DNA of 64,000 nucleotides from Rothia sp. HMSC078H08 (GTDB lineage: Bacteria; Actinomycetota; Actinomycetes; Actinomycetales; Micrococcaceae). Made by a program: the position numbers and the translations under genes. Each line of letters begins with the position of its first letter. Position 1 is the first letter of the stretch. Location: contig NZ_KV795254.1 in the NCBI RefSeq assembly GCF_001808955.1, forward strand, positions 279,559 through 343,558. Reading direction: 5' to 3'. Of this stretch, positions 38,279 to 41,195 are shown piece by piece. Below the pieces are notes generated by a model. That model did no database searches. It was not told where the DNA came from and was given only the letters and a program-made list of their open reading frames with translations.

Positions 38279-38935
38279 ATGACTACTGCAACACCTCTTG
38301 CTTCTCGTGACACTTCTGCACACCTTCCGGCAGGTTTGGTGGTACTTCACCCCGCCCGCACTGCGTCCGCCAGCACCGTGCAGGGGCGTTCTCGTGTGCC
38401 TGCGTCTTCGCAGTCTGTTCGCTCTTCTCGTGCGGCTCATGCGCCTCGCCCCGCTCAGGTGGGTCAGCCTACTCGTGTTCCCGCCGCTTCTGCCCCTGCT
38501 GGCTCTATTCAGGCACCGGTTCGCTCTGTAGCTTCTGGCGCGCAGACTGCTTCTGATGCGCAGACCCCTAGCGTGAAGAGTGTTCTTCTGGCTAAGGGCG
38601 GCGAGTTTCTGCGCGCGGTTCCCGCTTCTATTCGTCGTCTTGGTACTGTGCGCGGTTTCCTGAAGGGGCTGCCTCTGCTGACTTTGGCGGCGCTGATTGT
38701 GCTCGGTGCTATTAGCTTCTTTGGCCCGGCGGCTTCTGCTTCTGTGGAGAACGCTTCGGTGACTCGAACCGTCGTTGTGGTCAAGCATGGCGAGACCCTG
38801 TGGGATATTGCTCAGGCGGTGGATCCGCAGGGTGACACCCGTGATACTGTGGTTCGTATTATGGAGTTGAACTCGTTGACCAGCACCTCTGTTGATGCCG
38901 GTCAGCGTCTGGAAATTCCTCAGACTCAGCGCTAA
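38279..38935 (+). CDS. LysM-domain membrane protein divergent from lexA (SOS division-inhibitor type)
   Basis: The 218-residue product has a disordered Ala/Ser/Pro-rich N-terminus (about residues 1-125), one membrane segment (LPLLTLAALIVLGAISFFG, about 138-157), and an extracytoplasmic LysM domain (VKHGETLWDIAQAV ... ELNSLTSTSVDAGQRLEIP) at the C-terminus. In mycobacteria and corynebacteria the gene divergent from lexA encodes a similar protein (Rv2719c/ChiZ, DivS) that is SOS-induced and slows cell division. By position and architecture this is probably the equivalent. The ATG at 38279 follows AAAGGAA. Its long upstream region contains the LexA-box candidates. Confidence 0.85.
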   Translation: MTTATPLASRDTSAHLPAGLVVLHPARTASASTVQGRSRVPASSQSVRSSRAAHAPRPAQVGQPTRVPAASAPAGSIQAPVRSVASGAQTASDAQTPSVKSVLLAKGGEFLRAVPASIRRLGTVRGFLKGLPLLTLAALIVLGAISFFGPAASASVENASVTRTVVVVKHGETLWDIAQAVDPQGDTRDTVVRIMELNSLTSTSVDAGQRLEIPQTQR

Positions 38936-39053
38936 GCATGGACACGTACGTGGTTGGCTTCTGCATGAGGTTGATGTCTTGACTCCGAACCCGCTATCTC
39001 TCAAGCTGAGCGCTTGAGTCGAATTCTTGAGCCTATGAAATAGGAGCGCACCG

Positions 39054-39821
39054 ATGCCTGTTCCCGCTGAACCCACACCCGCTGCAACCACACCCGTCGA
39101 AACTGAATCTGTACAGACCACTCAGCCCGCTCGTCCCGTGGTTGCCGTTTTGGGGGATCCCGGAACTCGTGGTCCTCTGGTGAAGCTTCTTCAGGATGCG
39201 GGGGCGGACGTTATCGTGACCGCTGTGCCCGACCAGTTGCGTGAAGCTGACGGCATGGTGGTGACCGGCGGTGTGAGCTCTCTCGAGGCGTACGAAGACC
39301 TGAAAGCTAAGGACGCTGAGCGCGTGATTGGTCGCCGTGTTGCTGGCGGTCGTCCGGTGCTGGTTGCCGGTGCGGCGTTGAGCTGCCTCTTCGACTCGGT
39401 GACGGTGGAGCATCCGCAGATGGGGCAGGTTCAGGTGCAGTGCATGGGGGAGTGGCCCGGTGAGAGCGTGGAGCTTTCTGCCCGAGACCTGGCGCCCGGT
39501 GCTTCTGCCCTGCGTTCTTCCTCCGATAGTACGTTGCTCAAGGATCTTGAGGGTGAGGCTCACTTCAAATCTGAGCACGGCGTTTTTGAGTGGGCTTTTG
39601 ATCAGAGCATTGAATATATTGCCCCTCCGGCGGTGACTTGGACTGTCACCGAGCCCGCCTATATCGCGGCGGTTGAGAACGGTCCACTGACGGCGGTGCA
39701 GTTCTGCCCGGTAGGTTCTGGCGAGCTGGGGGCGGAGTTTATGCGCCGCTGGGTTGCGTCCCTGGCGGCGACCGGTCGCCTGTCTCCTGGCGACTCCGCT
39801 ACTGCTGCGGGAGGTAACTAA
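39054..39821 (+). CDS. HisH-like class I glutamine amidotransferase lacking catalytic residues
   Basis: The 255-residue product aligns by eye with HisH, the glutaminase subunit of imidazole glycerol phosphate synthase: DPGTRG for the DYGSGN-like start, EADGMVVTGG for the ADGLVVPG-like loop, GGRPVLVAGAALSCLF for the nucleophile elbow, and IAAVENGPLTAVQFCPVGSG for the C-terminal His-Glu region. The Cys of the usual G-I-C-V-G-M-Q is Gly (near residue 106), and the QFHPEKS catalytic His and Glu are Cys and Val. All three triad residues are therefore missing. A Thr/Pro-rich tail of about 25 residues precedes the domain. It overlaps priA by one base (TAATG). No hisF, hisB or hisC is adjacent. Confidence 0.78.
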   Translation: MPVPAEPTPAATTPVETESVQTTQPARPVVAVLGDPGTRGPLVKLLQDAGADVIVTAVPDQLREADGMVVTGGVSSLEAYEDLKAKDAERVIGRRVAGGRPVLVAGAALSCLFDSVTVEHPQMGQVQVQCMGEWPGESVELSARDLAPGASALRSSSDSTLLKDLEGEAHFKSEHGVFEWAFDQSIEYIAPPAVTWTVTEPAYIAAVENGPLTAVQFCPVGSGELGAEFMRRWVASLAATGRLSPGDSATAAGGN

Positions 39822-40606
39822 TGTCTGTGCCCGTTCTTGAACTTCTGCCCGCCGTTGATATTTCTGAAGGCTACGCGGTGCGCCCGGTGGGCGGCACCCT
39901 GTCCGGTGGTGAGCAACGCCTCGACCCTGTTGAGGCGGCTCTGACCTGGGTGAAGGCGGGTGCCCGCTGGATTCACCTGGTTGACCTTGACCTGGCGTTT
40001 GGTCGCGGCACGAATACCGAGGTTCTGGCTGAGGTGGTTGCCGCAGTCCGTGCCGAGAACACCCGAACCGGCTCCGCTCCGGTTCGTGTTCAGGTCAGTG
40101 GCGGTGTGCGTAATGCTGAGAGTCTGGAGCGCGCCCTGAGCCTGAATCCGGACCGCGTGAACGTGACTAGTGCGGCTCTGGCGGATTCTTCCTGGCTTGA
40201 AGGTGTTCTGGCTCATTATGCCGATTCTGATCTTCTGGCTCTTGGCCTCGATGCCCGTTATAACCCCGAGCGGGGCTGGGTGACGGTGGCTCGCGGTACC
40301 GATTGGTCGGGGCCTGATTTGGCGGAGGCGCTGGCGTGGCTGGAGAGCGCGGGTGTGCGCCGCTATATCGTCACGGATGTGAGTAAGGACGGTTCTCTGG
40401 CGGGCCCGGGTGCGGAGCTGCTGGATGAGGTGCTGGCTCAGACTGCCTGTCGGGTGGTGGCGTCCGGTGGTGTGGCGTCGCTGGCTGATCTTGTGAAGCT
40501 GCGTTCTATGGTGCCTTATGGTTTGGAGGGCGTGGTGCTTGGCAAGGCGCTGTATGTGGGTAACTTTAGTTTTGAACAGGCTCTTGAGGTCGCTGGCTCC
40601 CGCTAA
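39821..40606 (+). CDS. priA: Phosphoribosyl isomerase A (HisA/PriA type)
   Basis: PriA is the actinobacterial TIM-barrel isomerase that acts on ProFAR (histidine) and PRA (tryptophan, replacing TrpF). The 261-residue protein keeps the two catalytic aspartates, in LLPAVDISEG and VTDVSKDGSLAGP, the Arg of AVRPVGGT, the phosphate-binding VQVSGGVRN and VASGGVASL loops, and WIHLVDLDLAFGRG. It shares a TAATG junction with the HisH-like gene. Because that neighbour lacks glutaminase residues and no other his genes are seen, PriA may be retained mainly for tryptophan synthesis; that is inference. A bidirectional terminator follows. Confidence 0.9.
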   Translation: MSVPVLELLPAVDISEGYAVRPVGGTLSGGEQRLDPVEAALTWVKAGARWIHLVDLDLAFGRGTNTEVLAEVVAAVRAENTRTGSAPVRVQVSGGVRNAESLERALSLNPDRVNVTSAALADSSWLEGVLAHYADSDLLALGLDARYNPERGWVTVARGTDWSGPDLAEALAWLESAGVRRYIVTDVSKDGSLAGPGAELLDEVLAQTACRVVASGGVASLADLVKLRSMVPYGLEGVVLGKALYVGNFSFEQALEVAGSR

Positions 40607-40663
40607 AGCTACCGCTCTGCTTTAGCCCGCGTAGATTTCTTATCCGCATAGGTTTTATATATG

Positions 40664-40706
40664 ACGAAGCCCCGTCTTCCTCAATACGAGGGATGCGGGG
40701 CTTCGT
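40664..40706. terminator. Bidirectional terminator between priA and the DUF1844 gene
   Basis: ACGAAGCCCCG.CTTCCTC pairs with GAGGGATGCGGGGCTTCGT around AATAC, between converging genes. Confidence 0.88.
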
Positions 40707-40772
40707 GATGGCATACACCAGATAGTAGGCCTGCTGGTTTAGCGCACGTCCTGGCTTAGTACACCAGTTGGT

Positions 40773-41195
40773 TTAGTACACCGGGCCGGTGAGCTTTTCA
40801 CCGGGGCCCTTGCCGGGTTCGTCCGGGAAGGGAGATGCTTCGCGGAATGCGAGCTGCAGGGTGCGCAGGCCGTCGCGCAGGGGTGCTGCGTGCTGGGAGC
40901 CGATTTCGGGCGCTGCGGCGGTGACGAGGCCTGCCAGTGCGGTGATAAGCTTGCGTGCTTCGTCGAGGTCCTTGAGGTCGTCGGCGTTTTCGTCTGCTGC
41001 CAGGCCGCACTTGACGGCTGCGGCGCTCATCATGTGGATGGCTGCGGAGCTGATGATTTCGATGGCGGGTACGTCTGCGATGTCGCGCAGCTGTTCGTTG
41101 ACGGCTTCGACCTGCTCTTCGGTGAGTTCGGTGTGGCCGTGTACGGGGGTTTCTTCTTCCGCGGTGAAGCGGAAGTTCGTGTTTTCAGTGCTCAT
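40773..41195 (-). CDS. DUF1844 family protein
   Basis: The 140-residue product is a DUF1844 member, a small helical family of unknown function. The core ADVPAIEIISSAAIHMMSAAAVKCGL-type segment, written here in parts (DVPAIEIISSAAIHMMSAAA and VKCGL), is followed by LDEARKLITALAGLVTAAAP. The gene regularly lies beside infC in actinobacteria, where it may relate to translation initiation. It is transcribed away from infC, leaving a 347-base divergent spacer with the infC leader. Acidic N-terminus and Pro/Gly-rich C-terminus are variable parts. Confidence 0.85.
   Translation of the reverse strand: MSTENTNFRFTAEEETPVHGHTELTEEQVEAVNEQLRDIADVPAIEIISSAAIHMMSAAAVKCGLAADENADDLKDLDEARKLITALAGLVTAAAPEIGSQHAAPLRDGLRTLQLAFREASPFPDEPGKGPGEKLTGPVY

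Follow-up and report, generated by a model that had tools for sequence, protein, structure and literature searches.

The locus described here raises the question of why a HisH-like protein that has lost the residues of a glutaminase should still be encoded, in good order, next to priA. The locus lies within a stretch of 64,000 nucleotides from Rothia sp. HMSC078H08, and this whole stretch, as it was analyzed, is called the window in the following.

The hisH-like gene and its lost catalytic centre

The gene for the HisH-derived pseudo-glutaminase occupies positions 39054 to 39821 of the forward strand (an ORF of 255 amino acids) and is followed on the same strand by priA (39821 to 40606; PF00977, 161.7 bits), which encodes a phosphoribosyl isomerase that would serve as TrpF only, similar to SubTrpF. 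The first-pass annotation had described an intact frame with a one-base overlap, and this was confirmed: the stop codon of the hisH-like gene and the start codon of priA share one base (TAATG). As read from the sequence, the likely ribosome-binding site of the hisH-like gene (AGGAG, 39042 to 39046, forward strand) ends seven bases before its ATG, and that of priA (GGAGGT, 39810 to 39815, forward strand) is situated inside the end of the hisH-like gene, five bases before the ATG. We infer that the two genes are translationally coupled in the mucilaginosa group. A scan of positions 38900 to 40800 returned zero promoters and zero terminators and was uninformative, and a search of a plasmid collection gave no match.

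Upstream of the gene pair are a LysM protein gene and two genes that we take to be lexA and dinG; downstream are a DUF1844 gene and, presumably, infC, rplT and an rRNA methyltransferase gene. LysM and DUF1844 were assigned using Pfam, and the other neighbors were named by recognition of their translations. The his-plus locus L068 runs LysM, hisC, hisB, hisH, a small ORF, priA, an sseB-like gene and DUF1844, with hisC and sseB again being presumptive names given by recognition. In the window, the interval between LysM and DUF1844 retains hisH and priA and lacks hisC, hisB and the sseB-like gene, in agreement with the earlier remark that neither hisB nor hisC is adjacent. The small ORF encodes a hydrophobic protein of 55-59 amino acids and separates hisH and priA in all five his-plus loci that were read as well as in Rothia aeria (G002) and in genome G007 (positions 5458-5684 of L068; also in L069, L070, L071, L072, L062 and L063). 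The spacing between hisH and priA, small ORF included, is 190 bases in R. aeria and 222 bases in G007, and it is 32 bases in the metagenome-assembled genome G034. The small ORF is not found at the junction in the mucilaginosa group or in G034, nor was a copy detected anywhere in the window. A similar-looking ORF was seen, by eye, beside priA in the distant locus L101.

By its place, its profile match and its predicted fold, the ORF is an orthologue of HisH, and the HisH fold pattern that had been proposed was thus borne out. Its TIGR01855 score is 35.4 bits versus a family cut-off of 105.4 bits, and both profile and structure model give the HisH fold. The HisH profile search and the structure model search returned HisH, and a sequence search of the PDB with the single protein returned designed repeat proteins, weak PdxT matches and a few others near E = 1. 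A structure model built on the pseudo-HisH rows alone was weak, and residues 3-22 of the HisH-like protein have a pLDDT below 50. The HisH structures named for comparison are 1ka9_H, 4gud_A and 1gpw_B. Unlike HisH, the pseudo-HisH has no catalytic Cys, His or Glu, its oxyanion-strand and HisF-side motifs are gone, and it falls below the family cut-off.

In the alignment, Gly106 (codon at 39369 to 39371, forward strand) stands at the place of the nucleophilic Cys and QFCPVGS (residues 216-222; 39699 to 39719, forward strand) at the place of QFHPEKS, so that Gly106, Cys218 and Val220 are found instead of the triad; the claim that Cys, His and Glu of the glutaminase are all lost was therefore correct. 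Neither the catalytic Cys nor HPE was found in any of the 95 long clusters among the 120 clusters listed. A catalytic Cys elsewhere in the protein was also looked for in the alignment, and no conserved one was found: Cys112 varies among members of the clade, and the G034 type lacks Cys218. The replacements of the triad vary by lineage, with Gly combined with Cys and with Val, Ile or Leu in most, and Gln combined with Ala/Val or Asp/Thr in the G034 type. Because they differ between lineages, the triad may have been lost in two or more steps. Three new residues, Glu78, Gly124 and Phe229, are common to all eight pseudo lineages. NCBI records of several relatives name the protein imidazole glycerol phosphate synthase, and the record of the metagenome-assembled one says hypothetical protein. 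The residues of the pseudo-HisH rule out that activity, and the database name may therefore mislead metabolic models on histidine synthesis.

Next, the 109 columns conserved to 94% or more across 34 HisH rows were compared with 24 pseudo rows, near-copies included. Forty-eight of these columns are kept in at most 12.5% of the pseudo rows, 45 in at least 87%, and 16 lie between. Six motifs (DYGAGN, PGVGAF, GICVGLQ, PHMGWN, FYFVHSY and QFHPEKS), which between them contain the nucleophile, oxyanion strand, HisF-contacting Trp and His-Glu pair, were examined separately, a column being counted as kept when it is retained in at least half of the rows. Only 8 of the 37 catalytic or HisF-side motif columns are kept versus 45 of the 72 other conserved columns (Fisher p = 5e-5). 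The lysine of QFHPEKS, which we take to be a HisF contact, is gone, and the other motif roles and the residue equivalences are presumptive assignments, in part read from motif order. PHMGWN, with the equivalent of the HisF contact Trp123, is lost as well. Outside these motifs, residues 93-103 (GRRVAGGRPVL; 39330 to 39362, forward strand) are nearly unchanged between HisH and the pseudo-clade. Structure prediction covered single chains, and statements about faces of the protein rest on motif positions and on published or presumed residue roles. For C84, H178, V51/G52 and W123 of T. maritima HisH, the roles are those given in the accessible part of PMC12828452.

Pathway loss, common descent and purifying selection

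Gene content was read from 35 Rothia genomes, one per species, and absences accordingly refer to relatives of the window rather than to its own genome. Seven of these genomes are his-minus: G001, G002 (R. aeria), G007, G014 (R. mucilaginosa 141_RMUC), G015, G028 (Rothia sp. RSM386) and G034. Matches to HisG and to HisD were each obtained in 27 of the 35 genomes, with none in the his-minus seven or in G024; HisB is present in 26 and has no match in the seven, G024 and G032. Two full-length PF00977 proteins occur in 26 genomes and one in each of the seven his-minus genomes, and the incomplete genomes G032 (65% complete) and G024 (72% complete) have one and none, respectively. A hidden HisF was considered and rejected, as the single full-length PF00977 match in each his-minus genome is PriA; the PF00977 search thus yielded no HisF partner in the seven genomes sharing the trait. 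TrpF (PF00697) is absent from 34 of the 35 genomes, the only one being in G024, whereas TrpC is present in all 35, and TrpA and TrpD are present in all nine genomes tested, the his-minus seven included. The genome G024 has a true TrpF, a TrpC and a HisH-like match at 42%, and it gave no match to PF00977, HisG or HisD; it is possibly a mixed or misplaced bin.

As HisG, HisD, HisB, HisF and TrpF are all missing from them, the seven relatives lack the known pathway to histidine, and no candidate PRA isomerase other than PriA remains. Thus, the genome search that the first-pass annotation had proposed for hisF, hisG, hisD and trpF came back empty for the seven relatives sharing the trait, with hisB absent as well. 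Its suggestion that histidine synthesis was lost and PriA kept for tryptophan appears well supported by the gene content of these relatives together with the PriA residues described below.

In a tree of the flanking genes (16 rows), the window and the seven his-minus genomes form one clade with a support of 100/100. An intact HisH-like ORF is present beside priA in all seven, with identities to the window protein of 90, 88, 88, 75, 55, 50 and 41%, the last being that of G034, in which the reported stop is the terminal stop. The HisH tree has a poor root and very long internal branches. In it, the 11 pseudo-HisH rows group together (support 99/96) with a stem length of 2.27 changes per column, and beyond this stem the branches are long, 5.75 to the G034 type and 1.7 to the other pseudo rows. 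Taken together, the sequences suggest a burst of change followed by constraint.

The first-pass annotation had also asserted that the gene is being maintained, and dN/dS across Rothia agreed with this, pointing to purifying and not to relaxed or neutral evolution. Pairwise dN/dS values of the window copy versus G001, G015, G028 and G014 are 0.178, 0.28, 0.247 and 0.15. Codon models gave an omega of 0.165 for five copies of the mucilaginosa group, 0.123 for seven copies and 0.125 for eight copies; distant his-minus pairs are saturated at synonymous sites, and the five-copy set is the safe one. For this set, omega = 1 was rejected (2 x delta lnL = 175). The N-terminal tail, residues 1-27 (39054 to 39134, forward strand), is unconstrained at an omega of about 1.5 (1.47 with five copies and 1.68 with seven) and served as an internal control. 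The remaining segments gave, for five and seven copies, 0.21 and 0.16 (residues 28-86), 0.001 and 0.02 (87-103), 0.07 and 0.06 (104-131), 0.06 and 0.07 (132-145), 0.28 and 0.21 (146-179), 0.04 and 0.03 (180-217), and 0.06 and 0.03 (218-243). Residues 180-217 (39591 to 39704, forward strand) form the conserved block WxFDQSI..PPxVTW..IAAVENGPLxAxQF. For his-plus HisH, omega is 0.023 with largely saturated synonymous sites, so that the pseudo-HisH value is 5-7 times higher; PriA shows a similar rise, from 0.010 to 0.073-0.110.

That the gene is a decaying pseudogene on its way out is the least credible explanation: a few frameshifted clusters and an omega above that of true HisH would fit it, but the frame is intact in all seven genomes over identities of 90-50% and, for G034, 41%, and omega is 0.12-0.165 with omega = 1 rejected, which refutes decay at the level of the whole clade; individual strains may have suffered decay recently. 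Four of the 112 pseudo clusters listed (P0106, P0114, P0115 and P0118) look frameshifted at a G run just after the CMG that precedes EWPG; either sequencing errors or genuinely broken alleles may be the cause.

PriA of the his-minus clade

The window PriA scores 224.6 bits with TIGR01919 (bifunctional PriA, hisA-trpF; cut-off 306.45) and 151.1 bits with TIGR00007 (HisA; cut-off 228.95), and is thus below both. According to the alignment, in all eight his-minus PriA proteins NLGTAAL has become NVTSAAL and RGWTK/QxGG has become RGT(D/E)WxG, so that Thr103 is replaced by Ser and Trp139 by Thr (4x2r numbering). In the window, the replacing residues are Ser117 (codon at 40169 to 40171, forward strand), at the place of Thr103, which is Thr105 of M. 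tuberculosis PriA, and Thr160 (40298 to 40300, forward strand), at the place of Trp139, which is Trp145 of M. tuberculosis PriA. A third position, Arg83 (Arg83/85), is Lys in only three of the eight proteins (G002, G007 and G034), and the window keeps Arg. Residue loss on the ProFAR side of the SubTrpF type (Trp139/145, Thr103/105, Arg83/85) is therefore present, and the relatives also have the corresponding gene content, namely PriA and trp genes with neither a histidine pathway nor TrpF. On these sequence grounds, PriA of the his-minus clade is very probably a TrpF-only enzyme. The eight his-minus PriA proteins are 5-11 residues longer than the his-plus proteins between the second helix and the third strand (about residues 77-88 in the window). 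To judge from barrel topology, this extension would lie on the side that receives HisH in HisF.

Two comparable systems have been described. In the accessible part of one report (eLife 2017, PMC5404923), SubTrpF of the Actinomycetaceae is a PriA kept after the loss of histidine synthesis in actinobacteria of human cavities, with Trp139 changed; Rothia PriA shares the retention and the Trp139 change and belongs to a different lineage. SubTrpF2 of the Ornithinimicrobiaceae, as presented in the accessible part of a second report (Microb Genom 2026, PMC13055916), carries Thr105 to Ser and Trp145 to Ser and complements trpF, but not hisA. Rothia PriA likewise has Ser for Thr105 and has lost Trp145, which is Ser in SubTrpF2 and Thr in Rothia. 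However, HisA co-occurs with SubTrpF2, and its priA lies away from his genes, whereas Rothia has no HisA and a HisH-like neighbor. Also in comparison with SubTrpF2, the equivalents of Arg19 and Thr170 are kept in the his-minus PriA proteins, as is Arg85 in the mucilaginosa group. The main text of both papers, in its accessible part, mentions neither HisH nor Rothia. To our knowledge, and judged from the sequences, Rothia PriA appears to be a third, independent SubTrpF lineage.

HisG is also missing elsewhere: a profile search found it absent from 18 of 297 genomes of the order. Two of these are his-minus Rothia (G001 and G028), 11 have no full-length PF00977 match, and four (G191, G206, G275 and G294) keep one. 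The remaining genome, G259, matches PF00977 twice over the full length and also has HisH, and HisG is therefore probably missing from its assembly. In the four genomes with one match, no HisH-like ORF was found within about 1.5 kb of priA, which indicates that PriA as such needs no HisH-like neighbor. Of the genome-wide TIGR01855 hits in these four, the three that were read (L090, L092 and L093) look like PdxT and PurQ; this search also missed the G034 pseudo-HisH and may miss far-diverged copies elsewhere. The four priA loci (L097-L099 and L101, from G206, G294, G275 and G191) represent two further genera that are HisG-less with a single PriA, and they are possible further independent cases of SubTrpF.

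The role of the pseudo-HisH

A protein without a catalytic centre that is under purifying selection must act without glutaminase chemistry, and we are confident that the HisH-like protein is a maintained pseudoenzyme with a selected non-glutaminase role. The sequences themselves show that the relatives have lost the pathway, that the triad is gone, that the pseudo copies share an ancestor and are under purifying selection, that PriA carries the substitutions and that the two genes overlap. The explanation that, on balance, we favor is that HisH was kept as a pseudoenzyme after the loss of the histidine pathway, most likely as a non-catalytic partner of PriA. In the ancestor of the oral Rothia clade, histidine synthesis would have disappeared together with HisF, with which HisH had worked, and PriA, freed of its HisA duty, would have become the only candidate PRA isomerase (TrpF) for tryptophan. 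HisH would have been retained, a burst of change would have erased the triad, the oxyanion strand and the HisF-docking motifs in every lineage seen, and purifying selection would have held the protein since. It may bind PriA non-catalytically, being produced beside it, presumably through translational coupling in the mucilaginosa group, and may stabilize or tune PriA via surfaces other than the old glutaminase face.

A conserved non-catalytic protein that is made next to PriA suggests PriA as its partner, although we would put the chance that PriA is that partner at somewhat below even. The partner reading gains from the gene overlap at the place where the small ORF lies in his-plus loci, and from the homology of PriA to the old partner HisF, the HisF chains 1h5y, 4evz and 1ka9_F matching PriA at 3.5e-14 to 3.6e-11. 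However, hisH and priA are already neighbors in his-plus species, so that their linkage proves little, and because the HisF-docking motifs are lost, docking on PriA cannot simply copy the HisH-HisF dock. The four other HisG-less genomes in which priA has no HisH-like neighbor also speak against this reading. A more specific form, in which the pseudo-HisH is an obligate non-catalytic subunit of a TrpF-specialized PriA, and the pair a new heteromeric PRA isomerase in oral Rothia, is rather unlikely.

The main rival, which we regard as doubtful, is that HisH of the Micrococcaceae had a second, non-glutaminase job unrelated to PriA, which outlived histidine synthesis. It would account for the blocks GRRVAGGRPVL, GEWPG, WxFDQ..PPxVTW and AVENGPL being about equally strict in the 34 HisH and 24 pseudo rows, for the lowest omega values (0.001-0.04) at residues 87-103 and 180-217, for the loss of the HisF-side motifs, and for the other HisG-less PriA genomes that have no HisH beside priA. 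Yet many of the kept residues are Gly, Pro, Trp or buried-looking and may simply hold the fold, and the tight coupling to priA in the mucilaginosa group speaks against it. We know of no other partner of the pseudo-HisH.

That the old fold has acquired a new enzyme activity, for instance through Cys218, which replaces the catalytic His in most of the clade, is improbable. Gly106 and Cys218 are indeed fixed in all six lineages outside the metagenome-assembled (G034) type, but the two copies of that type have Ala or Asp at the place of Cys218, no new set of active-site residues was recognized, and the structure matches give only the HisH fold. It is slightly harder still to credit that the ORF is a cis-acting leader whose translation feeds priA by coupling while the protein itself is inert. 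The TAATG overlap and the internal ribosome-binding site of the mucilaginosa group would suit such a leader; nevertheless, the protein is kept in R. aeria, G007 and G034, where the genes do not overlap, and amino-acid selection is strong outside the tail.

Glutamine amidotransferase domains without chemistry have a precedent. In vertebrate carbamoyl phosphate synthetase I, for example, a class I glutamine amidotransferase fold has lost the nucleophile but stays joined to an active synthetase, which takes free ammonia; in Rothia, by contrast, the synthase partner is gone altogether. Literature searches found no paper joining hisH with Rothia, none on Rothia with PriA and histidine biosynthesis and, among the matches listed, no HisH pseudoenzyme by title; a search on glutamine amidotransferase pseudoenzymes and the catalytic cysteine returned one paper, which deals with vitamin B6 enzymes and not with HisH. 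In its accessible part, a paper on an R. mucilaginosa model (PMC11237427) names histidine once, as a tested substrate, and does not mention auxotrophy, and the accessible parts of PMC13004514 and PMC4732765 contain nothing on the hisH-like gene. Pseudoenzymes and SubTrpF are known; a HisH that is selected after losing both its chemistry and its partner is, to judge from these searches, new.

Orphaned subunits are usually lost after gene loss; the pseudo-HisH is kept in all seven species seen of the clade, so that a second or newly evolved function of HisH becomes testable in a simple two-gene system. Rothia PriA, for its part, differs at two sites where SubTrpF2 has changed as well. In the mouth-dwelling Rothia, selection seems to use a dead HisH for something else.
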